Positions 712 through 15,858 of a stretch of 15,858 nucleotides of DNA are shown here, piece after piece. How positions within the stretch are numbered: position 1 is the first letter of the stretch; the number at the start of each line of letters is the position of its first letter. The translations under genes were made by a program, and so were the position numbers. The stretch lies in NCBI GenBank assembly GCA_003697085.1, contig RFFU01000095.1, forward strand, positions 1 through 15,858, in the 5' to 3' direction. Below the pieces are notes generated by a model that was not told where the DNA came from, ran no database searches, and saw nothing but the letters and a program-made list of their open reading frames with translations. The stretch is from Candidatus Hydrogenedentota bacterium (GTDB lineage Bacteria; UBA8481; J006).

Positions 712-798
712 TTTTTGATAATCTCCGGCATTATGGTAGCAGGGGACTTGGGAAAAGAAAACCGATCCTCGGGGCGAAAGGGGGAAGAGCGTGACACG

Positions 799-2439
799 GT
801 GGTTTCTCGGTCGAAAGGCATTCTCTTACCGTTTCTCATTTTCCTGATCGGCATACTCACTGCCCTGTATCTTCATTCCCCCGCGCTCCTAAGCCGCACC
901 GTCTATCGGAGCGATCTCCGCCAAGCCATTCATTGGGCCGCTTATCACACGACGACGTTTCGACAGGATGACCTCCTCCTTGCCTATGCTCGTTTCAACG
1001 AGAGCCCAGTCCAGAACGTCCTTTACTGGTATGGAACACTTTTTCTCGACGTCATTCTTTTGAGTAAGGTGCTTGCGATTCTCGGCTATGCCTTGGCCGG
1101 GCTCTGCGCCTATTTCGCGGCTCTCTCTTTCACGAACCGCACCGGAGCCTTCTTCTCCGCTTGCTTTTTCCTTCTCTGCCCCGACCAGTTCGTCTATTAC
1201 AGCGGCGGCTTCTCCAAGGCATGGATGATGCCGCTTTTGATGATCACGATCCGCTTCCTCGAACGAGAACGATGGCAAGCGTTCCTCTTGTTGATGCCGT
1301 TCGCCGCGCTGGCCTATCCCGTAGCGGCCGTGCTCATCGGAATGACGGTTCTTGTCCACCTGCTCCTCTATCGCCGAAATCTTCTCTTCCCGCCGGGAAG
1401 ACCGGTTTTCTTCTTCCTGGCGGGATCGTTCGTGGCTCTTGTCATCCTTCTTCTCCGGTTCGGCTCCCCGAAGGGGTTCATCGGACCGTTGGGGGCTCAC
1501 GAACTCTTGATGCGCACCGAAGAACTCTATGAAGGAGGTGCCCAGCACTATCTTCCCACTCCCTCACTCCTCGATGCCCTCCTCCCCTTTCTTACTCCCC
1601 CTTTCGTTCTCGTCTCCGCCTTCTTGATTTTTCTGCTTCTGAAACCGAAGGAGATCACGTGGCCCTCTTCTTTCTCCTCGCTCCTCGTCGCCTCGATCAT
1701 TGGATACCTCCTCGCCGACCTTCTCTTCATCAGGCTCTACATTCCAAACCGCTATCTCCGTTACACGATTCCGGTCCTCTTATCCTTCTGGCACGGGGTT
1801 CATCTGCCACGCGTTGTGAAGAAAATTCCGCGGCCGGGGCTGCGGGCGGCGACCGTACTCATCCTGGCTTCTATAGCGGTCGTTTCGTACAGAGGGGATT
1901 TCAAACCCGGCAAGGAGACACTGGATCGGAGTCGTTTGTCCTCGCTTTGCCGATTTTTCGAGACGACGCCCCCGGGAACGTTGATTTCGGGGCATCCGTA
2001 TGTGAACGACGATATTCCGATTCAGGCGCGCCGGAGTGTTCTTTGCAACTACAAATTGGCTCATCCCTGGTTTCCCCGTTTTTACGCTCTTCAGAAAGAA
2101 AGGACACTGGCGACCTTCCGCGCCATTTACGCGGCCGACACCAAGCCGCTGATCGAGTTGCGGAAGAGATACGGAGTCGATCTCTTGGTCATCCGTAAGA
2201 AAAAAGATTACAGCAGGAAGCGGATTCGCAAGGGGCGGATCTATCTTCGCAGTTATCGTCGTGAGATCGACGCGATCATTGGAGACCGCAGACACTTTCT
2301 TCTCGAAGATCCGCCCCCGGAGTGGATAGTTTACGAGGACGAACGCTACCGCGTCATCGATCTGAGGAAGGTTTCGAGACGGTCCTCGCGCGCTTCGCGG
2401 AACGGCGCTCCGAACGAAATATCCGTCCCACTTCGATGA
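799..2439 (+). CDS. Large integral membrane protein, GT-C glycosyltransferase-like
   Basis: About 546 residues. An N-terminal helix (ILLPFLIFLIGILTALYL) is followed by an extracytoplasmic loop with YRSDLRQ and FRQDDLLLAY, then about eight further hydrophobic helices, and from about residue 380 a soluble C-terminal domain (for example ISGHPYVNDDIPIQARRS). This layout (acidic residues in the first loop, many helices, C-terminal periplasmic domain) is that of GT-C type polyprenyl-sugar glycosyltransferases and related uncharacterised families, so transfer of a sugar at the outer face of the membrane is an inference. The frame stays open upstream to 118, but that part lies antisense to the divergent gene. 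I chose GTG 799 because a purine-rich AAGGGGGAAGAG precedes it by about 9 bases; ATG 733 is possible but has no ribosome site and leaves only 21 bp to the divergent start. The 3' end overlaps the convergent gene by 86 bp. Confidence 0.8.
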   Translation: MVSRSKGILLPFLIFLIGILTALYLHSPALLSRTVYRSDLRQAIHWAAYHTTTFRQDDLLLAYARFNESPVQNVLYWYGTLFLDVILLSKVLAILGYALAGLCAYFAALSFTNRTGAFFSACFFLLCPDQFVYYSGGFSKAWMMPLLMITIRFLERERWQAFLLLMPFAALAYPVAAVLIGMTVLVHLLLYRRNLLFPPGRPVFFFLAGSFVALVILLLRFGSPKGFIGPLGAHELLMRTEELYEGGAQHYLPTPSLLDALLPFLTPPFVLVSAFLIFLLLKPKEITWPSSFSSLLVASIIGYLLADLLFIRLYIPNRYLRYTIPVLLSFWHGVHLPRVVKKIPRPGLRAATVLILASIAVVSYRGDFKPGKETLDRSRLSSLCRFFETTPPGTLISGHPYVNDDIPIQARRSVLCNYKLAHPWFPRFYALQKERTLATFRAIYAADTKPLIELRKRYGVDLLVIRKKKDYSRKRIRKGRIYLRSYRREIDAIIGDRRHFLLEDPPPEWIVYEDERYRVIDLRKVSRRSSRASRNGAPNEISVPLR

Positions 2440-2884
2440 CCCAACGCCCGGAAGACTTCCTCGCTCTGCCGAAGACGACGACCTTCTCTCCGTTCCCGAT
2501 CGTCTTTTCGAAGGCCTGAAATCCGGGGAATCCTTTTTCCACGAGGGCGTCGTGGGAGGAGACGTCGAAAGGATCGGATCGGGTTTTCAACGCGATCCGG
2601 CCGTCGGGCATTTCCAGGAAAAGGTTTTCCGCGAAGACGGTGGCCCGAAGGAGGCGGCGAAATTGGGTGCGCCGCCGCAGCGTGAATTTCGGGGGAACGT
2701 AGCGCGCCTTGTAATAGAAGGCGGCACAGATTTTCCCTCGGAGCGGCGAGGTCAACGGCGAGGTCGTCGTAAGTCTTCCTTTCAAGGCCACATACCCTTG
2801 GCGTATGTCGGCCACGCGATCGATTTGCGGAGGTTGTCTCACGCCGATCGCCACGAGGAATTCCTGAAGGATTCTCTGAAACAT
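2354..2884 (-). CDS. Small protein with GIDE-like domain
   Basis: 176 residues from ATG 2884, which follows an AAGAGG by 7-8 bases; the same frame is open to 3001 but that extension has no ribosome site. Residues 30-60 (YVALKGRLTTTSPLTSPL, then GKICAAFYYKAR) resemble the start of the GIDE domain, a beta-rich module found in bacterial membrane proteins and in the mitochondrial E3 ligase MUL1, where a G/V-x-G-x-A followed by SPLTG-x-x-C is typical. Bacterial GIDE proteins usually have N- and C-terminal membrane helices and often sit beside LemA; here no helix is present and LemA is not visible. A short frame encoding one membrane helix ends 11 bases upstream, so the membrane part may be supplied by a separate or frame-split piece. 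The C-terminus is basic and overlaps the convergent gene. The family call is from memory of the motif and is moderate at best. Confidence 0.6.
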   Translation of the reverse strand: MFQRILQEFLVAIGVRQPPQIDRVADIRQGYVALKGRLTTTSPLTSPLRGKICAAFYYKARYVPPKFTLRRRTQFRRLLRATVFAENLFLEMPDGRIALKTRSDPFDVSSHDALVEKGFPGFQAFEKTIGNGEKVVVFGRARKSSGRWVIEVGRIFRSERRSAKRARTVSKPSSDR

Positions 2885-2895
2885 CCGCGCGCCTC

Positions 2896-3030
2896 TTATT
2901 CTTCTTTCGGTTTGAGGTAAACCCGGGAATATCGCGTCCCAGCCAGAACGTAACAAGAAACAGAAAGAAGGGAAACGAGAAAACCGACCGCCGGCGTGCA
3001 AAGATTAACTTCGTAGGCCCGCGGAAACAA
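2896..3030 (-). CDS. Possible small single-helix membrane protein
   Basis: A 44-residue frame with one clear helix (VGFLVSLLSVSCYVLAG), an aromatic/basic stretch and a KPKEE tail. Its TAA overlaps the AAGAGG ribosome site of the GIDE-like gene, as in a coupled operon. The start is uncertain: TTG 3030 is the closest candidate and has no Shine-Dalgarno sequence; the frame remains open to a GTG at 3159. It could instead be the out-of-frame remnant of the GIDE protein's own N-terminal helix. Kept at low confidence. Confidence 0.25.
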   Translation of the reverse strand: MFPRAYEVNLCTPAVGFLVSLLSVSCYVLAGTRYSRVYLKPKEE

Positions 3031-3194
3031 GAAAGATGCCGAGAAGCCCGGAATAGAAATGGGGCGCAGGTTCTCCAACTTGCGAGGAGCGGATTGGCGA
3101 TCGGCGGTCGGGGGAATCCCCGTCTCCAATCTTATGAAATGCACCTGCGGGATGGGCACTGGCTTGCGCGAACTTCTTCTCGTAGACTCCGGAT

Positions 3195-4142
3195 ATGAAG
3201 GATACAGAGAGAAATACGCGGCACAGGTCTCTCCGTTTCGCGCGGGCGCGGGATGCGGGGCGCCGGAATTTAATCGCAGGAATGGCTCTCAATATCGGGC
3301 TTGCGGCCGTCAAGATTCTCAGTGGCATCGTCGGCCGTTCACAAGCCCTGATCGCCGACGGCATTGAATCCCTTGCGGACATCGGCGGAAATTTGATCGC
3401 GTTCGGCGGAATTCGCATCGCGTCCCAGCCGGCGGATCATAATCACCCTTACGGGCACGGAAAGGCGGAACCTCTGGCTTCCGTGCTCATCTCCTTTCTG
3501 CTTGGGGGAGCCGTCATCGTCATTGCTATTTCAAGTGTCCGAAGTCTTATTCATCCTCAGCCGCTCCCGGCGCCGTGGACACTTGTCGTTCTCGCGCTCA
3601 TTTTCACGACGAAAGAAGTGTTATTCCGGTTTACGGAACGCCGGGGAACGGATGCGGGAAGCAACGTCCTTGTCGCGGATGCCTGGCATCACCGATGCGA
3701 TGCCATCACTTCCTTCGCCGCTTTCATTGGAATCTCGCTCTCACTTCTTTTCGGATGGCGTTTTGCAGACGCTGCAGCGGCCATGATCGCGGCGGGAATC
3801 ATCGCCGTGAATGCGCACCGTATCGGACGGCAGGCGCTGGCGGAACTGATGGACGAATCGCCGGAACCGGCCCTCGAAGCAAAAATCCTCGATGTCGCCG
3901 TCGGCGTTCCGAATGTCCGCGGGCTGGACAAGTGCCTCGTTCGGAAGATGGGGCTCGAATACTATGTTGAACTTCACCTGCTCCTGGACGGCTCACTAAC
4001 TGTTCACAAGGGACATGAAATTGCTCACGAAGTCAAGGACGCAGTCCAAAACCAGATCGCCGGCGTTGCTGACGTGATCGTCCACGTGGAACCCGTTATC
4101 GAGAAGCATCCTTCGGAGAACCCGGCCCCTCTTCCGAAATGA
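3195..4142 (+). CDS. Cation diffusion facilitator (CDF) metal efflux transporter
   Basis: 315 residues, the usual length for this family. It exports divalent metal ions (Zn, Fe, Mn, Co or Cd, depending on subfamily) in exchange for protons across the inner membrane. Family marks in order: transmembrane helix 2 with ADGIESLADIGGN (residues 54-66), the loop HNHPYGHGKAE (82-92), helix 5 with ADAWHHRCDA (161-170) carrying HxxxD (H165, D169), and a C-terminal cytoplasmic ferredoxin-like domain with VHKGHEIAHEV (270-280). In helix 2 the metal site reads E58xxxD62 where DxxxD or HxxxD is common, so the metal cannot be predicted. About 25 basic N-terminal residues precede helix 1. The stop overlaps the start of the EamA gene by four bases, so the two are co-translated. 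Confidence 0.93.
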   Translation: MKDTERNTRHRSLRFARARDAGRRNLIAGMALNIGLAAVKILSGIVGRSQALIADGIESLADIGGNLIAFGGIRIASQPADHNHPYGHGKAEPLASVLISFLLGGAVIVIAISSVRSLIHPQPLPAPWTLVVLALIFTTKEVLFRFTERRGTDAGSNVLVADAWHHRCDAITSFAAFIGISLSLLFGWRFADAAAAMIAAGIIAVNAHRIGRQALAELMDESPEPALEAKILDVAVGVPNVRGLDKCLVRKMGLEYYVELHLLLDGSLTVHKGHEIAHEVKDAVQNQIAGVADVIVHVEPVIEKHPSENPAPLPK

Positions 4143-5032
4143 TTCCCGCCTTTCTCAACGCAATCCTCTTTGGGACGAACGCTTTGGTCGCAAAAGGTCT
4201 TTCTGAAAAAGGGTTAACAGACCGCGACCTTCTATTCACGAACTTCTCCATCGGCGCGGTACCACTCTTTCTGTTCGCGTTCCTTTTGGGAAAGTGGAGG
4301 TTTCCTGCAGCGGTTCTGCCGGTGTTTTTCGGAGCCGTAGCGGGAAACCTCCTCGCGGTCACACTCTATTTCCGCGCGCTCCGGTTCACGGAGGTCTCGA
4401 TCGCACTGCCTTTGATCTCGCTCTCCCCCGTCTTCATTCTCGTAACCGCTCCGGTGATCGTGGGCGAGCGGATCGGGCCCCTGGGAATCGCGGGCGTCCT
4501 TCTCGTAGGAATGGGCGCCTATCTTCTCGGGGCCTCCCGTAACCGGGCCTCTTTTGCGGCGCCGGTATTGGCTTTGAGCCGGGATCGCGGCGCGCGTTAC
4601 GCGCTCGCCGTCGCCCTCGTCTGGTCCGTCACGGCCAACTTTGACAAACTCTGCCTTCGTTATCTCGACCCTTACGTCTATCCGGCCGTTTTTTCCGCAG
4701 CAATGGCTCTTTTCAGCCTGCCATGTTTCCGGCGATTCTGGCCCTCCGGTCCGGACTCCGCTTGGCCCGCACGCTTGAAAACGGGCGCTTCTTCCGTTGC
4801 CGCGCGTCTCGGTTTGGGCCTGAGTTACGGTTTCATGCTTGCGGCGCATATGTTTGCAATGATGGCGCTGCCGGTTGCTTATGTGATCGCCATCAAACGC
4901 GCGGGAATGCTAGCCGGGATCGCCGAGGATGCCCGTCGCCGAACGCCGGGACGCGCCCTTCGGGCCGCTGGGGCCATCGCAATCCTGATCGGAATCGCCA
5001 TCATCGTCCTTCGCGGTGGTGGAGCGAGTTAA
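4139..5032 (+). CDS. EamA/DMT-family transporter
   Basis: 297 residues with about ten hydrophobic helices in two homologous halves, the drug/metabolite transporter (DMT, EamA) plan. The first half shows the usual repeat end VIVGERIGPLGIAG (107-119). The second half has the family signature YVIAIKRAG (248-256). Members move small metabolites or act as exporters; substrate cannot be read from sequence. The ATG overlaps the TGA of the CDF gene (ATGA), so expression is linked to it. One oddity: after IKRAGMLAGI the expected hydrophobic helix and GE motif are replaced by a polar, Arg-rich run (AEDARRRTPGRALR, 262-275) before the last helix, so one helix near the end looks shortened. This could be a diverged tail or a small local mutation. 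Confidence 0.9.
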   Translation: MIPAFLNAILFGTNALVAKGLSEKGLTDRDLLFTNFSIGAVPLFLFAFLLGKWRFPAAVLPVFFGAVAGNLLAVTLYFRALRFTEVSIALPLISLSPVFILVTAPVIVGERIGPLGIAGVLLVGMGAYLLGASRNRASFAAPVLALSRDRGARYALAVALVWSVTANFDKLCLRYLDPYVYPAVFSAAMALFSLPCFRRFWPSGPDSAWPARLKTGASSVAARLGLGLSYGFMLAAHMFAMMALPVAYVIAIKRAGMLAGIAEDARRRTPGRALRAAGAIAILIGIAIIVLRGGGAS

Positions 5033-5106
5033 CGTCGTAATGTAAGAAACGCGTTGCGGCGGAAAAACCAGGAAGGACCGAAAAACGCGGGAAGAAAGGG
5101 TGTGCC

Positions 5107-5160
5107 AAATGAGAGTCTGCGCACCGCCTCGCTCGGAATGACACCACGGGCAGGTCGGCA
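5107..5160 (-). repeat. Dispersed-repeat-like GTCATTCCGAG element
   Basis: Read on the minus strand this begins GTGTCATTCCGAGCGAGGCG and continues GTGCGCAGACTCTCAT. Sequences of the form GTCATTCCGAGCGAAGCGAGGAATC are, from memory, a common non-coding element in many genomes and metagenome assemblies, where they yield spurious CHSERSEE-like peptides. A related but diverged copy lies at about 6470-6507 in this window. Confidence 0.5.
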
Positions 5161-5262
5161 ATTCGCAGATGGGAGAGTCTGCGCTCCAAATCTTCCCGGA
5201 AGATTTCTTCCCTCTTCCCTTCCGTTTTGCCTTTTTCCGTTTGACTTTTGCCTTTCTTTTTT

Positions 5263-5364
5263 TTCCGTGTCATTCCGTGGCTTCCGTGGTTCCCTTCCCT
5301 TCCGCGTCTTTCCGTGGCTTCCGTGGTTCTTTTCCTTCCGTGTTCTTCCGTGTCCTCCGTGGTT
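5263..5364. repeat. Three imperfect 36-37 bp tandem repeats
   Basis: Units start at 5263, 5300 and 5336. Each contains the pattern TTCCGTGT-N(2-3)-TTCCGTG-N(1-2)-CTTCCGTGGTT with one or two changes; the third ends at GGTT 5364. Inside each unit the 6-mer TTCCGT itself recurs, so this is a nested repeat. On the minus strand it reads as CCACGGAGGACACGGAAG-like sequence, a type of GGACACGG intergenic repeat I have seen widely in environmental bacterial genomes. Confidence 0.85.
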
Positions 5365-5397
5365 GAAGGGCGGTCGCACCCGGCCTCCGCTGCCGGT

Positions 5398-6294
5398 TCA
5401 TCCTCCGTTCAACACTTGATCGAAATAAGCTGCTCCAACGATGCCCGCATCGATACCCAAACGTGCGGGAACGATCTCGAAACTCTCTTTCAAGAAGTCA
5501 TAAACCCGTTTCCGCGTGTAATCTCGAAGCGGCGCGAAAAGGATTTCCCCTGCTCCCGCAATCTGCCCTCCGATCACAAAGGACTCGAAATTGAAAATCT
5601 GCACCATTCCGGAAAGAACTTGAGCCAGATCGCGGGCAACGGAATCGAAGACTTTTTGCGCCCATTCGCTTCCCTCCCGAGCGGCGTCCGCAACGTCCTT
5701 CGGCGAATACTCCCCGTGATCGGGACTCAGTTCTCTGGCGAGACGAATGATCCCGTTTTTGGCGACGTACTGTTCGAGGCACCCGTCGTTTCCACAGGCG
5801 CAGACGACGCCTCCGGGGCGGAGCGTAAAATGCCCGATTTCCCCGGCCGTCTCATCCTTTCCGAGAAAGAGTTTTCCACCCAAGACGACGGCACCGCCCA
5901 GGCCCGTCCCGAGCGTCAAAAAGAAGACATCCTTCTTTCCCCGTCCCGCTCCGAACGCCATCTCGCCCCACGCCATCACGTTGACGTCGTTGCCAATCGC
6001 AACAGGACAATCGAGCCGTTTTTCGAGTTCCGAGGTCAACGGAACGTCCTTCCAGAGCGGAAGGTTGGGGCAGACCTGAACAAGCCCATGACGAGATTTG
6101 ACCAATCCTGGGACCCCAACACCGACTTTTTCGACCTTTTCGAATCCGGAAACGATTTCGACAATCCGCTGAATCGTTATTTTCGGAGGTTCCTGAGCTT
6201 CCGTATCAATGAGAACGCGGGAGACCACATCTCCCTTTTCGTTAACAAGTCCGGCCTTGATATTTGTTCCTCCGATGTCTATTCCAACTCTCAA
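5398..6294 (-). CDS. ROK-family sugar kinase (glucokinase-like)
   Basis: 298 residues. ROK kinases phosphorylate glucose or related hexoses and N-acetylhexosamines with ATP in the cytoplasm. Visible marks: N-terminal phosphate-binding VGIDIGGTNIKAG (3-15), GNDVN with the catalytic Asp at 103, LGTGLGGAVV (128-137), the GEIGH box (151-155) and the zinc motif CACGNDGC (C165, C167, C172, with H155 as fourth ligand), then a late glycine-rich DAGIVGAAY (282-290). All key residues are present, so the enzyme should be active. The start is TTG 6294, supported by a strong GAGGAGG five bases upstream. Glucokinase is the most likely activity by resemblance, but ROK specificity is hard to predict. The gene is divergent from moaA and preceded by a good promoter about 325 bp away, giving a long untranslated leader. 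Confidence 0.94.
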   Translation of the reverse strand: MRVGIDIGGTNIKAGLVNEKGDVVSRVLIDTEAQEPPKITIQRIVEIVSGFEKVEKVGVGVPGLVKSRHGLVQVCPNLPLWKDVPLTSELEKRLDCPVAIGNDVNVMAWGEMAFGAGRGKKDVFFLTLGTGLGGAVVLGGKLFLGKDETAGEIGHFTLRPGGVVCACGNDGCLEQYVAKNGIIRLARELSPDHGEYSPKDVADAAREGSEWAQKVFDSVARDLAQVLSGMVQIFNFESFVIGGQIAGAGEILFAPLRDYTRKRVYDFLKESFEIVPARLGIDAGIVGAAYFDQVLNGG

Positions 6295-6547
6295 TTTTTC
6301 CTCCTCTACCCTGGTTTTTCCGGCACAATTCTTCTCACTGCGATCGCAGCCAGGAATGTCCGCCCTCTATTTGCGAGGTATCCCACAACGGGGACGTTAT
6401 TCCGGCCGAAAGAGGATTCCTTTCACGAGGTGCTCCGCAGGCGGGACCGGTCAACGGCCTGGGGGAATTCCTCGCCGAGTTCCTCCCTCCTCGGAATGTC
6501 AAGATCCTCAATTTTGTTCCCCCGGTTTGAAAACCCACGCCCCTCTT

Positions 6548-6570
6548 CCGGCAGACTAGAATACTGCCGG
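6548..6570. repeat. Inverted repeat CCGGCAG / CTGCCGG
   Basis: A 7-bp perfect stem (6548-6554 with 6564-6570) around a 9-base loop. The sequence CGGCAGAC recurs directly after it, so the stem is partly made from two direct copies. There is no T-run after it on either strand, so it is not a standard terminator; it may be part of a dispersed repeat. Confidence 0.6.
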
Positions 6571-6619
6571 CAGACAAACCTGCGCTCCCAGGAAGTCTTG
6601 CCTACCGAATTTACCTCCC

Positions 6620-6648
6620 TTTATAAACTATCACGCACCCTTTTTCAA
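6620..6648 (-). promoter_or_regulatory. Sigma-70-type promoter for the ROK kinase
   Basis: On the minus strand TTGAAA (6648-6643) is separated by exactly 17 bp from TATAAA (6625-6620). Both are one mismatch from consensus. Transcription would start near 6613 and run toward the kinase, leaving a leader of about 320 bases. Confidence 0.6.
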
Positions 6649-6661
6649 TGCATCTTGCATT
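6647..6661. promoter_or_regulatory. Inverted repeat AATGCA-tct-TGCATT, possible operator
   Basis: A perfect 6-bp inverted repeat with a 3-bp spacer. It touches the -35 box of the leftward kinase promoter and lies where the -35 of the rightward moaA promoter would be, which is the usual place for a regulator site controlling a divergent pair. No regulator gene is visible in the window. Confidence 0.35.
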
Positions 6662-6669
6662 TTTCCTCG

Positions 6670-6675
6670 TATAAT
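6670..6675 (+). promoter_or_regulatory. TATAAT -10 box of moaA
   Basis: A consensus TATAAT ends 9 bp before the moaA ATG, so the transcript would start at or just before the start codon (nearly leaderless mRNA). This fits the lack of any Shine-Dalgarno sequence before moaA. No good -35 box is present at 16-18 bp, so an activator or another sigma factor may take part. Confidence 0.45.
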
Positions 6676-6684
6676 AGAGCAATT

Positions 6685-7677
6685 ATGGCTCTTGTCGATT
6701 CATATGGACGTTCCCAGGAAACATTGCGCATCTCCGTGACCGATCGGTGCCAGATGCGGTGCCGGTATTGCCTTCCGAACGGCGCTCCACCACCGATGCC
6801 GCGCGACGCGATACTTTCCTATGAAGAGATAGCCACAGTTGCCACGGTCTCCTCCGAACTCGGAATCAAGCGTTTCCGATTGACGGGAGGCGAACCGCTT
6901 CTTCGCCGACATCTCCACAGACTCGTTCGCCTCATTCACGATCAGTGTGCTCCGGACACGATCGCACTGACAACCAACGGATTGCTTCTTTCAGACCAAC
7001 TCGATTCCCTCGTGCACGCCGGGCTGACGCACATCTCTTTCTCCCTCGATACCACGGATGCGGAAGCCTTCCAAAGGTTGACCGGGCTGGATGCTCTTCC
7101 AAGGGTGCTGGCGGCGCTGGAGAAAGCCGTCTGCTACCGATCTCTTTCCGTTGAAATCAACACCGTTGCTTTGTCCGGAAGTACGGAACGCCAGATCGTA
7201 AATCTTCTGGAACTGGGACGGAAGCACGACATCGCCGTTCGCTTTATTGAGTTGATGCCGTTTGAGGATGTCGAATGGAAGCGGGAGGCGGTGCTGACGG
7301 GGGAACGAATTCTCGAGATCATCCGAACGTTCTATGGAGCCGACCGGGTGGAAGAGATCGAACGCAGTCGGCCGGCCGCTCCTGCTCGGCGATTCCGCTT
7401 CAAGGACGGTCGCGGTGGCTTCGGTTTGATCGAGCCGGTCTCGCGGCCCTTCTGCGAAAAATGTGACCGGCTCCGCCTCCGTTCGGATGGCCGCCTCTTC
7501 CACTGTCTTTTCGATCGAGAAGGGATCGATCTCCGGCAACCGCTGCGCGATGGTGATCGGGAGGCGGTACGGAAAAGAATCCAAGAGTGTGTCGAGGCGA
7601 AGGGTCCGGGAGGGATGCTGGAACTTCAAAAGCAGGTCGAACGACCAGCGCGTATTATGGCCTCGATCGGCGGATAA
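6685..7677 (+). CDS. moaA: GTP 3',8-cyclase MoaA (molybdenum cofactor biosynthesis)
   Basis: 330 residues, the normal length. MoaA is a radical SAM enzyme that converts GTP to 3',8-cyclo-GTP, the first step of molybdopterin synthesis. The N-terminal cluster motif CQMRCRYC (C22, C26, C29) binds the SAM-cleaving 4Fe-4S cluster; LTGGEPLLR (66-74) contacts SAM; TTNG and ISFSLDT follow; the second, GTP-binding cluster uses C257, C260 and C274 in FCEKCDRLRLRSDG and HCLF. The protein ends in the required C-terminal Gly-Gly (SIGG). All functional residues are therefore present. The frame is open far upstream (to 5248), but that stretch is antisense to the ROK kinase; ATG 6685 fits the family N-terminus. 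No moaC, moaE, mogA or molybdate transporter gene lies in this window, so this is a lone copy here. Confidence 0.96.
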   Translation: MALVDSYGRSQETLRISVTDRCQMRCRYCLPNGAPPPMPRDAILSYEEIATVATVSSELGIKRFRLTGGEPLLRRHLHRLVRLIHDQCAPDTIALTTNGLLLSDQLDSLVHAGLTHISFSLDTTDAEAFQRLTGLDALPRVLAALEKAVCYRSLSVEINTVALSGSTERQIVNLLELGRKHDIAVRFIELMPFEDVEWKREAVLTGERILEIIRTFYGADRVEEIERSRPAAPARRFRFKDGRGGFGLIEPVSRPFCEKCDRLRLRSDGRLFHCLFDREGIDLRQPLRDGDREAVRKRIQECVEAKGPGGMLELQKQVERPARIMASIGG

Positions 7678-8073: not shown

Positions 8074-9591
8074 CTACCGGCGATCTTCTTCGATACGCTT
8101 CGACAGATCGGCGATCATCCAGTCCCAGACACGGGCGGATTCGGTGACGGAACCGGTCCAGACGAAGGCATCGATGAGCCGTCCTTCCTTGTAAAGGTGC
8201 GCGGAGACCGTAATCGCGGTTCCCTCGACCTGATAACTCCCCTCGATTCGGTACCGAGCACCCGTTCCGTCGGCGGAATAGAGGTAGCGGCCGCGCCATC
8301 CATCCGCCAGAACGATCGGAATCGCCTCGCCTAACCAGGCATATTCTTCCCGGCCGGATTTATACTCGAAATTGGCCACGTAAACAGCGGGGGGGACTTC
8401 CGCGGCGGGAACCGGTTGGACGGTCTTTTCCTCGACGTTTGAGACCGGCTCCGTCCTCTTCCTCGTGCTCGCCTCCCGTTCTGAAACGCGAGTTAGTTTT
8501 GTCCCCGGAGCGGATTCCCGCTCGCGTTCCGGTTGCTTCGCCATATTTCCGGCCTTTCCGGTCTTTCCTCTTTCGGGAGGAACGGCCTGGAGTTGCTTCG
8601 TCTCCGCCTTCTCTTCCTTCCGGCTCCGTTTCGGTCCGATCTCGTAAGCCAGCGAGACGATGTGTTCGTTACCGAGGTCGCCGAAGGGGACGAAGGCGTA
8701 GTCGAGGTCGAGGCCTTGCCAACGGAACTGAGCGCCGGCCGTGAGCCCGCTTCCCTCGTCGGTGGCGGTATTGATTCCTCCGCGCACCGCGAAGTGTTCG
8801 GGCCAGATCCAATATTCCACGCCGAACTTTCCTTCCAAGTTTTCGTTCCGGACCCAAACGGCGTCGCCCGCCAGACTCCACCGGGAACCGGGAGGGCGAT
8901 ATCCGGCTCCGACGCGCATGGTGATCGGAAGATCCTCCTCCTCCCGAACGAACTTCAGGCTTGTTCCGACATTGGCCAGGCTGACGCCGACGGTGAGCCC
9001 CTCGACAGGGGTAAAAACCTTCCCTCCGATATCCACGGCGACGGCATTTGCGGAAAAACGATCGAGATTCTCGTGGATATAACGAAGGGTGAGGCCGAGA
9101 TCGACCCACGGGGCGACGATGCGGGAATAGGTCAAGGCGAGGGCGAGGTCGTCAGCGGTGGCGGAACCGACAATCTGATTATTGATGCCGGACGCGACGG
9201 TGGTCCGATCGATCTTGCCGAGATCGACGAACTGGGCGGAGACGGCCAACGCGCCCTTCTCTTTGAAGGGATAGAGGTATCCGGCGTAGTCGTAGGAAAC
9301 ATCGGCGAAGAGATTGTGGTGGACGAAGCCGAGTTGGCCGGTGCGCGTTCGCGCGATTCCCGCCGGATTGAAGAAGACACCGAAGACGTCGTCGGCCCAG
9401 GCCGTGTTCGCCTCGCCCATACCGGAGGCGCGCGCGCCGACGCCCAGCTGAAGGAAGGCCGCCCCCGTGCTTCCCGCCGCGGTAGCGGCGCGCACGGGAG
9501 GCGAAACGCCCGTCAAAAGGGCAAACGACAAGGCGAGAAGGAATCTTCTCCCCCCTCGCCGGCTCCTCGGTATGCCGGCCATGATATTCAT
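8074..9591 (-). CDS. PorV/PorQ-family outer-membrane barrel fused to a FlgO-like C-terminal domain
   Basis: 505 residues. A basic N-terminus and hydrophobic core (FLLALSFALLTGVSPPVRA) form a signal peptide cut near residue 36. Residues 42-62 show the family opening GAAFLQLGVGARASGMGEA, then FNPAGIA and alternating beta strands to about 317, ending GNEHIVSLAYEIG, as in PorV/PorQ-type barrels; PorV is the shuttle that handles cargo of the type IX secretion system. A charged, low-complexity linker (about 318-398) leads to a second domain (401-505) with VYVANFEYKSGREEYAWLG, YRIEGSYQVEG and a C-terminal helix, resembling FlgO/CsgG-like periplasmic modules. The ATG abuts the TGA of the preceding gene, so translation is coupled; a second ATG lies three codons in. 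Function in export or anchoring of neighbouring proteins is inferred. The barrel call is firm, the C-terminal call moderate. Confidence 0.88.
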   Translation of the reverse strand: MNIMAGIPRSRRGGRRFLLALSFALLTGVSPPVRAATAAGSTGAAFLQLGVGARASGMGEANTAWADDVFGVFFNPAGIARTRTGQLGFVHHNLFADVSYDYAGYLYPFKEKGALAVSAQFVDLGKIDRTTVASGINNQIVGSATADDLALALTYSRIVAPWVDLGLTLRYIHENLDRFSANAVAVDIGGKVFTPVEGLTVGVSLANVGTSLKFVREEEDLPITMRVGAGYRPPGSRWSLAGDAVWVRNENLEGKFGVEYWIWPEHFAVRGGINTATDEGSGLTAGAQFRWQGLDLDYAFVPFGDLGNEHIVSLAYEIGPKRSRKEEKAETKQLQAVPPERGKTGKAGNMAKQPERERESAPGTKLTRVSEREASTRKRTEPVSNVEEKTVQPVPAAEVPPAVYVANFEYKSGREEYAWLGEAIPIVLADGWRGRYLYSADGTGARYRIEGSYQVEGTAITVSAHLYKEGRLIDAFVWTGSVTESARVWDWMIADLSKRIEEDRR

Positions 9592-11274
9592 TCAGCGAAT
9601 CACCATGAACTTCCTCATCACCTGTTCTCCGTTTTCCGAACGGATCAGCGCGAAGTACACGCCCGACGCGACCTCCCGGCCGTCGTCGTTGTGCACGTCC
9701 CACTGAACATTTCCGCCGCTGTTGGTCACTTGAATCCGCGCGACACGGTGCCCCGCGACCGTATAGATAGTTATATCGACGTTATTCGGCACATTTTTGA
9801 AGACGATCCCCGTCGTATTGTCACCTTTGACAAACGGACGCCCCGTCTGCGGATCGCCGTCGTAAGGTATGTACGGGTTTGGATAGATTAGTACGGAAGC
9901 GAGATTCGATGCGGGTTGGTTGCCGAAGACCGCGAAATCGGTGAAATGGCGAAGAACGGCGGTCACGAGGTTCTGATTCGGGTCCACGGTCGAGGAAGCC
10001 TCGCGGATCCAAGCCCCCAGCCCCGTGTCGTAATAGTAGATTCCCAGATTCTCTTCCGGAATCGTCAGATTCGCGTCATCGTACGGAAGGGAGATCACGA
10101 CCTCGTGATCAAAGAGCCGCAGTCCGTCTTCACGGAAGAAACGCCGGTACGTTCCCGCTCCGGGAATGATCAAACCGCTGGACGGATCCGGAGCCGGGGC
10201 TTCGGACGGTGCCGAGAAGAAGAGAACACTTTGGACCCACACCGTATCCTGGCTCAAAACGCTCTCGTCCCGCGCATACACATAGGTTCCATCCCACATC
10301 CAGGAGGTATCGGGCACCTGTTTGAAGAAAAGATGGCGGCGATAATGGGCCATGGCCACAGTATCGTTCCACTCCTCCACGACCGGATTCGTCGGATTCT
10401 TGAAGATTCTTTGGATCTTCGGACTGGGGTCGGTCTCACCGTTTGCCTTCACGCCGACCGCCCGCACGACATATTCGCCGTTCGGTACGTTCCGGACATC
10501 CCACAAAACGCTCCAGGGTGGTCCCACCGTATCCGGATTTCCTCCGCTCCAAACCGCGGGAACAACGGGGGTCCAGTCGCCCCCCGGCGCGGGTCGATAT
10601 TCGAAGTAAACGCGCGCGAAACTGTCCGAAGGTTCGGCCACGAGCGAGAAGGCGTTGCCGGTAACGCGAACGCTGTCCGCGTTTTCGTGTCCGAACGAGA
10701 TCACCTCCGTAAAGGTCGGCGTCGCGTCCACGATGCCGATCGTAATCGTTACGATCGTGGACGTTCCCGACTTATCGATTACCGTCAACGTCACTTCGTA
10801 GGTGTCGCCGCTGATGTTCGAATCGAAACTCAGAAGCACGTTCCAGATGCTGTCGCCGGCCAAGGTGTCGCCGTTCGTTCCGTCATCGTAAAGCGGCACT
10901 GTGTCCGGACCTCCCAAGGGACTCAAATCCAGAACGACGGTATCGATTCCGCTGGTATCGCTGGCGCCAACGGTAACCACCACCGTACCTCCCGTGTTGA
11001 CCGTGATGGGAGGTTCAACATTCGTGAAGCCGACTCGCGGTGGACTCGTTTCCGATTCTTGGACGACGGTATCCACGGAATTCGATAGCACCGTCTTCGT
11101 GGTTCCCGAGGGGAACGAGAAGCGTATCCGGGCCGTGTTCGAGATGACTGTTCCCGGCGGAGTTGTTGCCGCAGCCGCGGTGGTTCCGAGGAGAAACGCC
11201 ACCGCGCAGAAGAGGAAGAAGCCCAGGACAAACTTCCCCAACGCTCTCGACGGGAGTCCTCGCCCGAGAAACAT
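9592..11274 (-). CDS. Exported protein with FlgD-like / type IX-style C-terminal domain
   Basis: 560 residues from ATG 11274, preceded by GGGGAG at about 7 bases; the frame is open to 11568 but the extension is Arg/Pro-rich and has no ribosome site. The signal peptide is KFVLGFFLFCAVAFLLG plus AAAA (14-36). Residues 40-70 share the pattern GTVISNTARI...SNSVDT with the N-terminus of the next gene's product. Ig-like beta domains follow, including LYDDGTNGDTLAGDSIW (128-144), a common extracellular module. A segment around 390-450 (GIYYYDTGLGAWIREASS, HFTDFAVFG) is another known surface module. The last about 100 residues start with VLIYPNPYIP and end with GREVASGVYFALI and VMRKFMVIR, the FlgD-like Ig fold used as a C-terminal sorting domain in T9SS substrates. 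Adjacent to a PorV-like gene, it is a probable cargo or partner. Confidence 0.87.
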   Translation of the reverse strand: MFLGRGLPSRALGKFVLGFFLFCAVAFLLGTTAAAATTPPGTVISNTARIRFSFPSGTTKTVLSNSVDTVVQESETSPPRVGFTNVEPPITVNTGGTVVVTVGASDTSGIDTVVLDLSPLGGPDTVPLYDDGTNGDTLAGDSIWNVLLSFDSNISGDTYEVTLTVIDKSGTSTIVTITIGIVDATPTFTEVISFGHENADSVRVTGNAFSLVAEPSDSFARVYFEYRPAPGGDWTPVVPAVWSGGNPDTVGPPWSVLWDVRNVPNGEYVVRAVGVKANGETDPSPKIQRIFKNPTNPVVEEWNDTVAMAHYRRHLFFKQVPDTSWMWDGTYVYARDESVLSQDTVWVQSVLFFSAPSEAPAPDPSSGLIIPGAGTYRRFFREDGLRLFDHEVVISLPYDDANLTIPEENLGIYYYDTGLGAWIREASSTVDPNQNLVTAVLRHFTDFAVFGNQPASNLASVLIYPNPYIPYDGDPQTGRPFVKGDNTTGIVFKNVPNNVDITIYTVAGHRVARIQVTNSGGNVQWDVHNDDGREVASGVYFALIRSENGEQVMRKFMVIR

Positions 11275-11379
11275 CGTCTTCTCCCCGCGGGTCGAATTTT
11301 CTCCCATCCCGCGGATCGGCACCCGAAGCGCACTTCGCCCGGGACCGGCTCGCATCAGAGCCGCGACTCCCCCCGCGGC

Positions 11380-11399
11380 CGTCCCGCCGAAGCGGGACG
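11380..11399 (-). promoter_or_regulatory. Very stable hairpin with UUCG tetraloop
   Basis: On the minus strand CGTCCCGC-TTCG-GCGGGACG gives an 8-bp perfect stem closed by C(UUCG)G, one of the most stable RNA hairpins. It lies about 105 bases before the start codon at 11274. It is followed by G-rich rather than T-rich sequence, so it is not a simple terminator; an RNA structural role is inferred. Confidence 0.5.
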
Positions 11400-11608
11400 A
11401 CACATCAGGAGCCTTTATTCGATTCGACGGAGCAGCGCGAGACGCTGCCGTCGTTGGGTTCTGCCGCGTTTTCGGAACCGGTCGGGTTCCGGGCGGACCG
11501 TTACACGGTCCCCGGCCCCTCGCGGGTCCTCCTCGCGGATACGGACGCCTGCGTTCCATAATGGGCACCGCCGGAAGACGGTATCCGGACGCACCACGGG
11601 TGAAGTGT

Positions 11609-11629
11609 CGAGATCCTCGAAGGATCTCG
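11609..11629 (-). promoter_or_regulatory. Perfect 8-bp hairpin after the DUF11 gene
   Basis: CGAGATCC (11609-11616) and GGATCTCG (11622-11629) form an 8-bp perfect stem with a 5-base loop, about 75 bases downstream of the DUF11 gene's stop on the minus strand. No T-run follows (GACACTTCACCC), so Rho-independent termination is doubtful; it may protect or delimit the upstream message. Confidence 0.4.
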
Positions 11630-11702
11630 GTTTCCCCACGGCGTCCCCCGGCTTCGCGGAGGATGTCTCATGACACCGTTCCGGCCTCCAGCCGCTCTCC
11701 CG

Positions 11703-12752
11703 CTACTGGATGATGACCCGGAAACGCATCGTCTTCGTTTCGGCCGCCGGCACTTGCTGGCGCACCCAACGGATCCATTTCACCGCGGATGGCGCGCCAC
11801 CGTAACTCGTGATCACCTTGTAATCTGGCGAATTATAGGCCTGGTTCGGAGAGGCCAGGGTCGAGACCTGCAATTCCCAACCCGTTGCGCCGGAATCACC
11901 CTCAACAAAAGTTGCCGTTGCGCCGAGATTCGTGGAGGAATTTGACGCCGTATCCCACGTCGTGTTCGTCGGAACCGAGTCGTAAATGATCACGGAATCA
12001 GCAGCGGCGCTTCCCGTGTTGTTATAGGTCAGTTCGTACTCGATCGTCGCACCCGGAAGAGGTACCGAGGCGTTTCCGCCGATCGTGACCGCCGTAACAC
12101 CCTTGGCCAGCGTCAGAATAGCCGCGGCAATCGTCGCCTTGGCCGTGTCGCTCGACCCGATTCCATCGGTCGCATAAGTCGTGCCGTTGTCCCCCGTGTA
12201 CTGGCCCGTGCTGTCGTAGGCCTGGGTAAATCCGGGGAGAATAACGAGTTTGAATTCTCCAGCGGCCCCGTCAGGCGAACTGTCGGGATTCGAGTTCGAC
12301 CAAACAGCCACGGAGCAGGAATATGTTCCGTCCGCCGCAACCGCCGGTGTCGCCAATGTGTCCTGCATCAGGGACGTGCTCTGGTTCCCGACGTACAGTG
12401 TAAAACGCCAGAGGCTTGCTCCCCCTGTCAGCGTCGTATCGGAAATGTAGATTTGAAATGTATCGCTGGCGTTTCCGGTATTCGTCAACGTATAGGTGAA
12501 GACTTGCGTCTCACCGACGTTGAACGTGGCATTCGCTTCGTCGGAAAGCGTGTCACCTCCGATCGTCGCCACCGTCGAATCGATCGGCCCACTCGTATCC
12601 GTCTGCGTCGATGCTCCCGATGTCCAGGAGACCGTCGCGATGTTTTGAATCGTCGTTCCCGACGCCGTACCCGTCGCGGAGGCTTTCCCTGGAAAGGCCA
12701 GTACCGCAAGAAGGACGGCGGAGAGAACCAAAAAAAGTTCCTTTCGTCTCAC
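11703..12752 (-). CDS. Secreted DUF11-domain surface protein
   Basis: 349 residues from GTG 12752, chosen because AAAAGGAG sits 7 bases upstream; a TTG at 12788 in the same frame has no such site. A clear signal peptide (LFLVLSAVLLAVLAFPGKASA) ends near residue 26. Residues 30-62 carry GTTIQNIATVSW, related to the N-terminus of the FlgD-like-domain protein downstream. Two DUF11-like Ig-type beta domains follow: about 75-170 (VFTYTLTNTGNASDTFQIY) and 211-349 (PLPGATIEYELTYNNTG). The second is closely similar, up to the last residue (FRVIIQ), to the C-terminus of the beta-helix protein at the right end of the window. DUF11 domains are found in large cell-surface and S-layer-like proteins; no enzyme motif is visible. 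Thr/Ser/Asn/Gly content is high, as in extracellular proteins. Confidence 0.87.
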   Translation of the reverse strand: MRRKELFLVLSAVLLAVLAFPGKASATGTASGTTIQNIATVSWTSGASTQTDTSGPIDSTVATIGGDTLSDEANATFNVGETQVFTYTLTNTGNASDTFQIYISDTTLTGGASLWRFTLYVGNQSTSLMQDTLATPAVAADGTYSCSVAVWSNSNPDSSPDGAAGEFKLVILPGFTQAYDSTGQYTGDNGTTYATDGIGSSDTAKATIAAAILTLAKGVTAVTIGGNASVPLPGATIEYELTYNNTGSAAADSVIIYDSVPTNTTWDTASNSSTNLGATATFVEGDSGATGWELQVSTLASPNQAYNSPDYKVITSYGGAPSAVKWIRWVRQQVPAAETKTMRFRVIIQ

Positions 12753-12867
12753 TGCCTTACTCCTTTTCGAATCGAAATTTTTGCTCAAAATCGCCCGTCA
12801 CCGAACCGGATATCCCCGTGATACCCGGCTGGAAATCGTCTGTCGCGATCCCGAAGGAACCGACGGA

Positions 12868-14439
12868 CTAATTCCCTTCCTCTTCCTCACCTCCTCCCCT
12901 CGCCTCCAATTCCGTCCCCTTCCAAACGCCGTTCACTTCAATCTCAGAGAGTTGAACGAAGCGCCAGGAAGGAGAACGCGTGTAGTAGTTCCTTCCCTTG
13001 GGGATGAATATCTTGACGAAACGAACCTTCTTTCCGCCGACGGGAACCTCCAAGCGCAACAGCGGGTCTCCCCGTTCGGATCGCTCCGAGAGACCCGCGA
13101 AGGCATTGAGTGAAAAACCGGGGTAACTCCAGTCTTTACCGTTCTCCGAAACCATCAGTGCGAAATTCGTCGGATAGGCATTTCCCCGCCAGATCGTCTC
13201 GACAGATTCGATCTCCTGGGTCCGGCCGAGATCGACCTGAACCCATTGGTAGGTATCCGTGAGATCGCCGGACGTCGCCATCCCCCGGAAATAATCGTAC
13301 CGACCGTCGGTAATTCGTTTGAGCGCGGGACGGGTATCCTCCGTCATTTGATCCGGCAGGAGTTGCCGAAACGAGCCGATTACCGGTGCACCGCGGGCGA
13401 TGTTGAAACTCCGTGTCCGGAATTTTCCCGGAGGATAGGTCGTCGTGCGTCCGCGGCGGTCGCGAACCTTGAGTGTGTAGCGATAGAACGACCGCGGTCG
13501 CAAATTTCCAATCGCGACGCTGTGTTCCCTGCCCTTTTCCGTCTCCCATTCCCGGACCTGGCCTGTACGGACATCCTCGAGCAGTACCTTCCCCGTTGCC
13601 TCGACGTTGGTCCCGAAGGAGATCACCGCCGTTCCGATCCCCGTGCTCACACGAATGTTCGTGGGAATCGGATAGGGATCCCCCGCCGTCCGGAAGGTGT
13701 ATGGTTCCTCGACACTCTTTCCGTGACTTCGCCCGCCGGCGAGAATCCAGACGAAATATTCCGTTCCCGGATAGAGGCCCGTGAGGGTCACGTGATGCTC
13801 GGTCGAAAAATCCGCTTGCGGTGTCGAAGTCGTCGTGAGTTCCACGGTGGAAAGGCCGTACAGCAGACTCGTCTTTTCCGGCAACGTCGTCCGCCAGCGT
13901 ACGGTTGCCGAATGTTCTGAAATATCCTCGAACCGGACATCCTTCACATCCACAGTCCCTTGTTCCGGAAAAAGGAAAGCGACTTCGGCAACCGAAACCG
14001 CTTCCTTCCCGGCCTTCATGGTCAACTTCACCATGCGCGCGGAGACCGGGTCGAAGGAGATTTCGTTCTTCCCCGCCGTTACTTTCCTCTCCGAGACGAT
14101 CTCGCGCCAATTCACTCCATCTCCGCTTATCGCAAGGGTTACTCCCGCCACGCCGAAAAAATCCTTCAGAATCACTCCGGAAAGGACCGCCTCACGGTCG
14201 GGAACGAGATAGACGGTCAATTCCCGACCCGCCTCGACGGTAACGACGGTTTCTCGCGATCCGTCCACGAGTCTTGCCAGTTCCTTCGCCCCCATCACGC
14301 GAAAATGCACTTCGGCGGTATCCGACGGGAGCAGAGCATCCGGCGAAGGAGCCGCGCGGGAGACCGTGCTCAAGAGCACGGAGATTCCAAGGGAAAATAA
14401 AAGGAAACCGATGGGGAAGAGAAATCGTCGCCGGTTCAT
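12868..14439 (-). CDS. Exported protein with two fibronectin III domains and F5/8 type C (discoidin) domain
   Basis: 523 residues. ATG 14439 overlaps the TGA of the preceding gene (ATGA), giving translational coupling; the frame is open further upstream but only antisense or inside that gene. The signal peptide is FLFPIGFLLFSLGISVLLSTVSRA (6-29). Domains in order: a discoidin-like beta domain (about 60-155, with ISGDGVNWREIV), a fibronectin III domain (about 163-251, ATVRWRT...LTGLYPGTEYFVWI), a second one (about 257-343, AVISFGTNVEATG...LRPRSFYRYTLKV), and an F5/8 type C domain (about 365-505, ITDGRYDYFRG, WVQVDLGRTQEIESVE, FVKIFIPKGRNYY). The tail is Gly/Glu-rich (GGGEEEEGN). Discoidin domains bind carbohydrates or lipids, so surface glycan binding is a reasonable inference. 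No catalytic motif is seen. Confidence 0.87.
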   Translation of the reverse strand: MNRRRFLFPIGFLLFSLGISVLLSTVSRAAPSPDALLPSDTAEVHFRVMGAKELARLVDGSRETVVTVEAGRELTVYLVPDREAVLSGVILKDFFGVAGVTLAISGDGVNWREIVSERKVTAGKNEISFDPVSARMVKLTMKAGKEAVSVAEVAFLFPEQGTVDVKDVRFEDISEHSATVRWRTTLPEKTSLLYGLSTVELTTTSTPQADFSTEHHVTLTGLYPGTEYFVWILAGGRSHGKSVEEPYTFRTAGDPYPIPTNIRVSTGIGTAVISFGTNVEATGKVLLEDVRTGQVREWETEKGREHSVAIGNLRPRSFYRYTLKVRDRRGRTTTYPPGKFRTRSFNIARGAPVIGSFRQLLPDQMTEDTRPALKRITDGRYDYFRGMATSGDLTDTYQWVQVDLGRTQEIESVETIWRGNAYPTNFALMVSENGKDWSYPGFSLNAFAGLSERSERGDPLLRLEVPVGGKKVRFVKIFIPKGRNYYTRSPSWRFVQLSEIEVNGVWKGTELEARGGGEEEEGN

Positions 14440-15858
14440 TGCACGATCACCCGAAACCGGATCGTCTTGGATGTTTTCCTGGGAATCCGGCGCCGAATCC
14501 AACGGACCCACTTCACGGTGGTCGGATCGGCGGGAATCCCGTCCGAATAATCGGGTGAGTTCTCGGACTGATCCGGATTGACGACGGTGGCGGTCTGGAG
14601 TTTCCAGCCTTTCGTAATGTAGGTGTCACTGAAGGTCGCCGTGGCATTGAGGGTGTCGGCCTCGCGGGAGGCCGTCGAGAATACGGTGTTGAGCGGAACG
14701 GAATCCCGGATGATGGCGGTCTCCGACGCGGCGTCACCGGAGTTGACGATCGTCAGTTCATACTCGATCGTCGCCCCGGGCAGCGGCGCCGAGGTCTCTC
14801 CACCGATACTGACCGCCCGGATTCGCTTGGAAATCGAGACGGCCGCGGAATCGATGTGATCGCCGATGATCGAATCGGAATAGAACGCCTCGTTCTCGAA
14901 GGGACTGACATTGTCGTACGCGGTGACGCGATAGTAGTAGGTTTCTCCGGTCGTGAGATTCGAATCCATGAAGGATTCCGTTCCGGCCGGCACAGTTCCG
15001 ACGAGCGGCCAATAGGAAGTATCGGAGGTCTTCGAGCGATAGATGCGATAGCCGGTCAGGTTGGTTGCATTCGGATCGGGTTCTCCATCAGCCGTCACGA
15101 TCGCCCAAGTGACCTGAATCGTCTCCCCGCCGAGAACCGTTACCGCGACAGTATCCGGAGCCTTCGGCGCCACGGTATCGGCTCCGGGAGACGTGTCGAC
15201 CGGCCCAAGACGCCACGGCGTGTACACCACACCGGCTCCTCCATCGTTGACCAGGTCCAGAATGGCGGCTGAATCCGTCGTGCCCCAGTAGTTTCGTATC
15301 GCACTCAAAGGATTGATCGGAGACCAGATCCCGTTCTTTTGGCCCGGCTCCTGGTAGATGTTGTTCTTCGAGATCGTCACTCCGTTGCTGCCGGCCCCCA
15401 CCACGATCTGGTAGTTCGCGTTCGAATCGATCTCGTTCGCCTCGATTATGACATTCGTGCAGGAGTTGAGCCGGAAGCCGGCGGAATTATTGAACCGGAC
15501 GAGGTTGAATTGGGCCGTGCAGGAGCGGGCATTGTTGAACTGAATTCCGTCCCATCCGTTGCTCAAGATCTCATTTTTCTTCAAAACGATGCTGTGCGCC
15601 GAATCGACGAAGATTCCGTGAAGCGGTCCATTCTGGACGACCGAGTTGAGGACCTGATTCCGATCCGCCGTCGTCGCCGTTCCTTCGAAGTAAATGCCGT
15701 AGTCGCTCGCGCCCGAGATCGTGACATTATCGATGAGATTGTCCGGATCGCGCACCGTGATCCCGCGCCAGCCGGTGTTCTCGATCGTCGTCGATTCAAC
15801 CGTGTTGTTTCCGCCGCCGTCGAGCCAGACGTGATCCGTGATCGTGCAGCCCGTGATC
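14436..15858 (-). CDS. Right-handed beta-helix / FN3 / DUF11 surface protein, 5' end outside window
   Basis: 474 codons are visible; the frame is open through the right edge, so the start and any signal peptide are missing. A GTG at 15755 is internal to a continuing beta-helix pattern and is not taken as the start. The first about 210 visible residues are parallel beta-helix repeats (for example NQVLNSVVQNGPLHGIFVDS, KKNEILSNGWDGIQFNN, NVIIEANEIDSNANYQIVVG), closing with NYWGTTDSAAI, a usual end of such helices. A fibronectin III domain follows (TIQVTWAIV...TGYRIYRSK...GETYYYRVTAYD), then a DUF11 domain (PLPGATIEYELTIVNSG) ending in IRFRVIVQ. Such helices are found in polysaccharide-active or adhesive surface proteins; no catalytic residues are recognisable, so adhesion or structure is as likely as an enzyme role. 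It is the first visible gene of the surface operon. Confidence 0.87.
   Translation of the reverse strand, partial: ITGCTITDHVWLDGGGNNTVESTTIENTGWRGITVRDPDNLIDNVTISGASDYGIYFEGTATTADRNQVLNSVVQNGPLHGIFVDSAHSIVLKKNEILSNGWDGIQFNNARSCTAQFNLVRFNNSAGFRLNSCTNVIIEANEIDSNANYQIVVGAGSNGVTISKNNIYQEPGQKNGIWSPINPLSAIRNYWGTTDSAAILDLVNDGGAGVVYTPWRLGPVDTSPGADTVAPKAPDTVAVTVLGGETIQVTWAIVTADGEPDPNATNLTGYRIYRSKTSDTSYWPLVGTVPAGTESFMDSNLTTGETYYYRVTAYDNVSPFENEAFYSDSIIGDHIDSAAVSISKRIRAVSIGGETSAPLPGATIEYELTIVNSGDAASETAIIRDSVPLNTVFSTASREADTLNATATFSDTYITKGWKLQTATVVNPDQSENSPDYSDGIPADPTTVKWVRWIRRRIPRKTSKTIRFRVIVQ

Follow-up and report, generated by a model that had tools for sequence, protein, structure and literature searches.

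The question raised by this locus is whether a cluster of secreted-protein genes from an uncultured and barely sampled lineage carries its own means of export across, or anchoring at, the outer membrane. The window, by which we mean the whole stretch of DNA analysed (15,858 nt), is an entire contig (C130) of a 3.2-Mb genome that is 94.6% complete (G000), and its minus strand holds five genes:

14436..15857, minus strand: P0005, with its 5' end past the contig end; beta-helix, FN3-like and DUF11-type C-terminal domain
12868..14439, minus strand: P0004, FN3 and F5/8 type C (discoidin) protein with a signal peptide, without a C-terminal sorting domain (CTD)
11703..12788, minus strand: P0003, DUF11-type repeat protein with a signal peptide, without a CTD
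9592..11274, minus strand: P0002, secreted Ig-like cargo, probable start MFLGRG at 11274
8074..9591, minus strand: P0001, PorV/PorQ-family outer-membrane barrel of 505 aa with an N-terminal signal peptide
9589..9594, minus strand: stop codon TGA of P0002 abutting the start codon ATG of P0001 (junction sequence)

The first-pass annotation read these as an operon for an extracellular assembly with its own export or anchor component, and its description of the layout holds. All five genes are present on one strand with the domain types attributed to them (ORFs, Pfam/NCBIfam), and gaps of 0-428 bp fit if P0002 starts with MFLG at 11274; translation of the longer P0002 ORF from 11568 is improbable. 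Both tight junctions are there, an ATGA overlap between P0005 and P0004 (14436-14439) and the abutment between P0002 and P0001 (9594-9589), where the junction sequence makes translational coupling probable. The four visible N-termini carry what appear by eye to be Sec-type signal peptides, and the set does include a sorting-type C-terminal domain (P0002, TIGR04183) together with a PorV-type barrel (P0001, NF033709). For the P0002 domain labelled "FlgD-like", TIGR04183 scores over its cut-off and Pfam FlgD_ig is sub-threshold only. The window is the whole contig, so the operon's 5' extent is not fixed by this DNA. An Rfam scan of the window gave no match, and promoter and terminator scans of it were at or under the shuffled background.

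Domain searches place all three upstream products among extracellular protein types. P0005 matches a beta-helix (4.3e-18) and a DUF11-type repeat (3.1e-7), with fn3 slightly below the Pfam cut-off; P0004 matches F5/8 discoidin (2.4e-18) and fn3; and P0003 matches the DUF11-type repeat TIGR01451 (1.8e-7). None of the three has a CTD. The C-terminal DUF11-like domains of P0003 and P0005 are 54% identical to each other, and no further copy was found in G000 and none in G001, its nearest compared relative. The idea that this domain is a second sorting signal was considered and dropped, as G000 has only these two copies. The operon structure is the basis on which P0003-P0005 may be partners of the surface protein P0002. 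On the plus strand, positions 1-7677 hold neighbour genes that are seemingly unrelated to the minus-strand operon:

about 700-2439, plus strand: membrane protein
3195-4142, plus strand: CDF cation efflux
4139-5032, plus strand: EamA transporter
about 6682-7677, plus strand: moaA; the upstream portion of ORF 5248-7677 is probably spurious

What kind of barrel is P0001? Two parts can be distinguished in its AlphaFold2 model, which was built from ten sequences and has a mean pLDDT of 74:

8638..9339, minus strand: 14-stranded FadL/PorV-type barrel, residues 85-318 (AlphaFold2, Foldseek, VIA)
8080..8385, minus strand: C-terminal alpha-beta-beta-beta-alpha domain, residues 403-504 (AlphaFold2 model), without a Pfam match

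By sequence, P0001 belongs to the PorV/PorQ family (NF033709, 178.8 bits against a cut-off of 90; Pfam PorV, 30.9 against 27) while scoring under the equivalog cut-offs for PorQ (NF033711, 121.6 vs 220) and PorV (NF033710, 80.2 vs 250), and it matches the PorV structure 6h3i in a phmmer search (9.2e-8). No PorP/SprF model was reported for it. The predicted structure upholds the PorV-like barrel named in the first-pass annotation, with 14 main strands within residues 85-318 and PorV as the best match in both programs (Foldseek, 8gl6_F, 5.1e-14; VIA, Z 32.8 over 279 residues); FadL/TodX transporters come a close second (VIA Z about 30). NCBIfam includes a "PorV2" model (NF052325), so PorV paralogues are already known to curators. 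No relatives of P0001 were found in IMG/VR. The C-terminal domain, presumably periplasmic, is common to close homologues of P0001 on contigs C96 and C110 of G000 and C169 and C204 of G001. A CsgG/FlgO-type periplasmic domain was considered as a name for it and dropped, the likeness being one seen by eye and Pfam giving no match. C-terminal extensions occur on many of the barrels (window 8080-8385; L041, L042, L060, L061, L069); the alpha/beta extension is apparently doubled in L041 and L060, and L069 has TPRs instead. These extensions are perhaps periplasmic anchors comparable to the PorE of type B operons.

The gene directly upstream encodes the candidate cargo of this barrel, and its sorting domain is the following feature:

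9595..9879, minus strand: T9SS-type C-terminal sorting domain of P0002, last 95 aa (TIGR04183, PorZ model, profile A1, structure)

This domain matches TIGR04183 Por_Secre_tail at 28.4 bits (cut-off 23) and the PorZ model at 44.1 bits; Pfam FlgD_ig, Por_Secre_tail and CHU_C (19.7 vs 27) stayed below threshold, and TIGR04131, the type B CTD, was not reported for P0002. Profile A1, made from 18 aligned CTDs, all from G000 and G001, retrieves PorZ first (3.7e-8) and PorU second from the PDB. The structure model of the domain (pLDDT 79) gives the same order, with PorZ at Z 10.3 (92 residues) and PorU at 9.2, and the CTDs of RemA, mirolase and RemZ rank behind both. All 18 aligned CTDs, that of P0002 included, have an invariant lysine near the C terminus. 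In Flavobacterium johnsoniae, the sole nearly invariant CTD residue that touches the translocon is such a lysine, hydrogen-bonded to PorV (PMC10994853). The CTDs of PorU and PorZ are not removed (PMC11285876), and the two proteins are anchored as complexes, PorZ by PorQ and PorU by PorV (PMC5562754).

The juxtaposition of cargo and barrel is not peculiar to the window. Protein searches with P0001 gave 20 matches in G000 and 17 in G001, some of them fragments of one gene, and most P0001-like genes lie directly 3' of a secreted, often large ORF that ends in a P0002-type CTD, with the C-terminal pattern ASGVY...GK..VIR. G001 is 86% complete and related to G000 at order level only; the remaining compared genomes have only the domain rank in common with it. 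A PorV-like gene is directly downstream of a CTD gene in 11 of 15 cases in G000, 10 of 14 in G001, 14 of 17 in G030 and 10 of 11 in G019, against a chance expectation of 0.02-0.04 per genome (0.03 in G000; P 1e-24 to 4e-34). A second CTD model, trained without G000 and G001, gives 12/16 and 10/14 in these two genomes, so the pairing is not a training-set artefact. Stop and start codons overlap by exactly four bases in 19 of the 22 pairs from G000 and G001. Barrel and CTD distances correlate within genomes (Mantel r 0.35, 0.71, 0.66 and 0.68; p 0.04, 0.0016, 0.0002 and 0.0008), indicating that pairs diversified as units, and for reciprocal-best barrels of G000 and G001 the matching CTD travels along in most cases. 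The pair is also adjacent in Elusimicrobia (L086) and Ignavibacteriae (L087), is interrupted by one small gene in Balneolaceae (L084) and Neomarinimicrobiota (L085), and in the cultured Rhodothermus marinus is found on the plasmid pRMAR01. Pairing is not strict, since about nine CTDs in G000 and five in G001 are orphans without a barrel; several of these come closest to P0002-type CTDs, and P0001-like barrels may therefore serve orphans too.

Does the genome also hold the machinery with which such a pair would work? In the textbook T9SS, a single PorV serves all type A cargo and PorU processes it. A check for core T9SS genes elsewhere in the genome gave a putative translocon, a divergent SprA/Sov-like ORF, but neither the C25 domain of PorU nor GldL.

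L058:6452-12754, in G000: SprA-like ORF of 2100 aa with ordered TIGR04189 matches

Its TIGR04189 score of 143 bits (E 5.5e-42) is below the 200-bit equivalog cut-off. The SprA-like protein of G001 is 56% identical to the G000 copy, and a direct phmmer search against the PDB gave no match. A profile (A3) recovers the proteins of both genomes and finds long homologues in G030, G039, G031, G010 and G007, and fragments at best in G019 and G028. In both G000 (L058:6452-15413) and G001 (L074:4378-12862), the SprA-like gene adjoins the LPS export permease genes lptF-lptG, a neighbourhood that suggests a link between LPS transport and the SprA-like translocon. The C25 peptidase domain (PF01364) is absent from G000, G001, G019, G030, G028, G039 and G007, and present in the positive controls G002, G004, G008, G010, G026, G031, G036 and G040; PorU-model matches in G000 and G001 fall outside the catalytic part, the best one in G000 spanning the CTD only. 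GldL (TIGR03513) was not found in G000, with two Bacteroidetes controls positive, nor in G030, G019, G010, G002, G008 and one Ignavibacteriae genome. As these include SprA- and PorU-bearing genomes, its absence is not specific to PorU-less lineages. With GldL not found, export may differ from that in Bacteroidota. The search for GldM matched in no genome, controls included, and is uninformative for want of a positive control. Among the features of a type A T9SS, P0002-P0001 has the type A CTD and the PorV/PorQ-family barrel, and no C25 sortase was found with it. An SprA-like protein without PorU departs from the textbook T9SS, and P0001 is not best read as the PorV shuttle for all cargo.

The missing sortase is accompanied by a different relation of cargos to barrels. 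The CTD:PorV ratio is 1.1-2.0 in C25-less genomes and 3.9-18.5 in C25-containing ones (p 0.006). Paired PorV genes number 45-48 of 65 in the former and 16-22 of 55 in the latter (Fisher 2e-5 to 2e-4; genome-level p 0.005-0.03), and the exact 4-base overlap is found in 33 of 48 C25-less pairs against 4 of 22 C25-containing pairs (p 1e-4). C25-containing genomes thus also hold some pairs, and pairing is enriched in, rather than exclusive to, those without the domain. The genomes are few and non-independent, so this relation is a correlation and not a proof.

We consider it probable that P0002-P0001 belongs to a set of repeated modules, each a cargo with its cognate barrel, in a divergent, PorU-less type IX-like route. 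P0002 and P0001 would be translated in tandem from their abutting genes in roughly equal amounts, and the cargo would be exported by Sec. The Ig-like CTD would then guide it through the SprA/Sov-like outer-membrane translocon, from which its own PorV/PorQ-type barrel would take it over. Because no sortase would remove the CTD, the cargo would be kept on the surface, held non-covalently by its own barrel in the way that PorQ holds PorZ and SprF holds type B cargo. The idea of an own outer-membrane export or anchor component thus survives for P0002-P0001, given the PorV-like fold, the PorZ/PorU-like CTD and the recurrence of the pairs, and not for the other three genes.

This arrangement combines traits of known systems. 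In type B pairs (SprB-SprF, Fjoh_3952-Fjoh_3951, PG1035-PorP), the cargo gene is likewise immediately 5' of its own FadL-type barrel; in F. johnsoniae the adjacent SprF-like shuttle and cargo are cognate, and the barrel has been proposed as a surface anchor (PMC12618676; PMC9143113), as it may be here. However, those pairs join a type B CTD to PorP/SprF, whereas here a type A/PorZ-like CTD is joined to a PorV/PorQ-like barrel, with no GldL motor found. The closest sequences and folds to the P0002 CTD and the P0001 barrel are those of PorZ:PorQ and PorU:PorV of Porphyromonas gingivalis, in which uncleaved Ig-like CTDs are held 1:1 at the surface, a likeness that probably extends to the present pairs. 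PorZ and PorU are two parts of a machine, whereas here about ten or more cargos per genome come with their own barrel and PorU is missing. With the canonical type A T9SS (SprA, single PorV, PorU), our genomes share a putative SprA-like translocon, a type A-like CTD with the invariant lysine and a PorV-family barrel, but neither a C25/PorU sortase nor GldL was detected and there are many barrels in place of one shared PorV. In the literature searched, which was open-access with few subscription papers, we found no account of type A-like cargo having PorV-type barrels of its own.

Three other readings have to be weighed. The system could be an ordinary T9SS. The paired barrel would then be exchangeable with several other PorV shuttles, an unrecognised peptidase would later remove the CTDs, and pairing would set expression dosage only. 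The orphan CTDs lend this some weight: they have to rely on a barrel supplied in trans, those of the KKIMII type mostly come nearest to P0002-type CTDs, so that P0001-like barrels may serve several cargos, and in F. johnsoniae one shuttle serves three orphan type B CTDs (PMC12618676). The near 1:1 CTD:PorV ratio and the parallel divergence of CTDs and barrels point to specificity, however, and the C25 domain was not found; we regard interchangeable shuttles as improbable. A second view takes the barrels to transport small hydrophobic molecules as FadL-type proteins do, or to serve as assembly factors in the manner of the FadL-like barrel in the BAM complex of Bacteroidota, with no mechanistic meaning in the CTD neighbourhood. 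The nearness of FadL/TodX to PorV in structure comparison, BAM-associated chains at Z about 26, weak Pfam Toluene_X matches in some paralogues and the four unpaired PorV-like genes of G000 would all fit, but an adjacency to CTD genes so far above chance (P about 1e-27) would not, and sequence models group P0001 with PorV/PorQ; this view is very improbable.

A third possibility, compatible with the cargo-barrel module and not exclusive of it, is that the whole operon makes one multi-subunit surface structure, P0003-P0005 being bound to surface-held P0002 with P0001 as the base. The single strand, the two tight junctions and the uniformly extracellular-type domains speak for such a structure. 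Conversely, no conserved five-gene order emerged among loci of which several, like the window, run off contig ends; P0003 and P0005 have in common a C-terminal domain that is found in this operon only; and at many other loci the pair is just a large cargo with its barrel. We therefore regard a single structure as possible but unlikely, and the earlier claim that the five products form one extracellular assembly is unsupported, P0003-P0005 lacking CTDs and that domain being confined to the operon.

Returning to the cargo-barrel module, a lineage without detectable PorU, in which PorV-like barrels nearly equal CTD cargos in number and the pairs are translationally coupled, suggests another route to surface retention. 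More generally, several deep lineages may use a sortase-independent type IX secretion, with most type A-like cargos being produced and exported together with their own PorQ/PorV-type barrel and permanently held by it, a proposal that we put forward tentatively, just short of calling it probable. The pair design joins the logics of type A and type B and offers a testable account of the origins of PorQ-PorZ and PorU-PorV. Were it ancestral, PorZ:PorQ and PorU:PorV would be its survivors, and the shared PorV with its sortase a later economy. A further question that it brings up is the energy source of SprA-type export in genomes without GldL.

Some loci show the barrel or the pair in other company. 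On pRMAR01 of the thermophile R. marinus DSM 4252 (L193:1481-7546), a TonB-dependent receptor, the CTD protein (RMAR_RS14115), the PorV/PorQ barrel immediately downstream of it (RMAR_RS14110) and a peptidoglycan recognition protein are encoded in a row. One of the four unpaired PorV-like genes of G000 (C110:27981-28964, L053) is near regulator genes, and both it and a counterpart in G001 (C26:9112-9957, L072) are followed by a conserved gene of 256-284 aa; this barrel possibly does a different job. Among P0001 homologues that lack a neighbouring CTD gene, the closest (G000, C110:45033-45959, L041; G001, C204:7797-8756, L060) come after prepilin-like genes and large ORFs of pilus type, in an order that is identical in both genomes.
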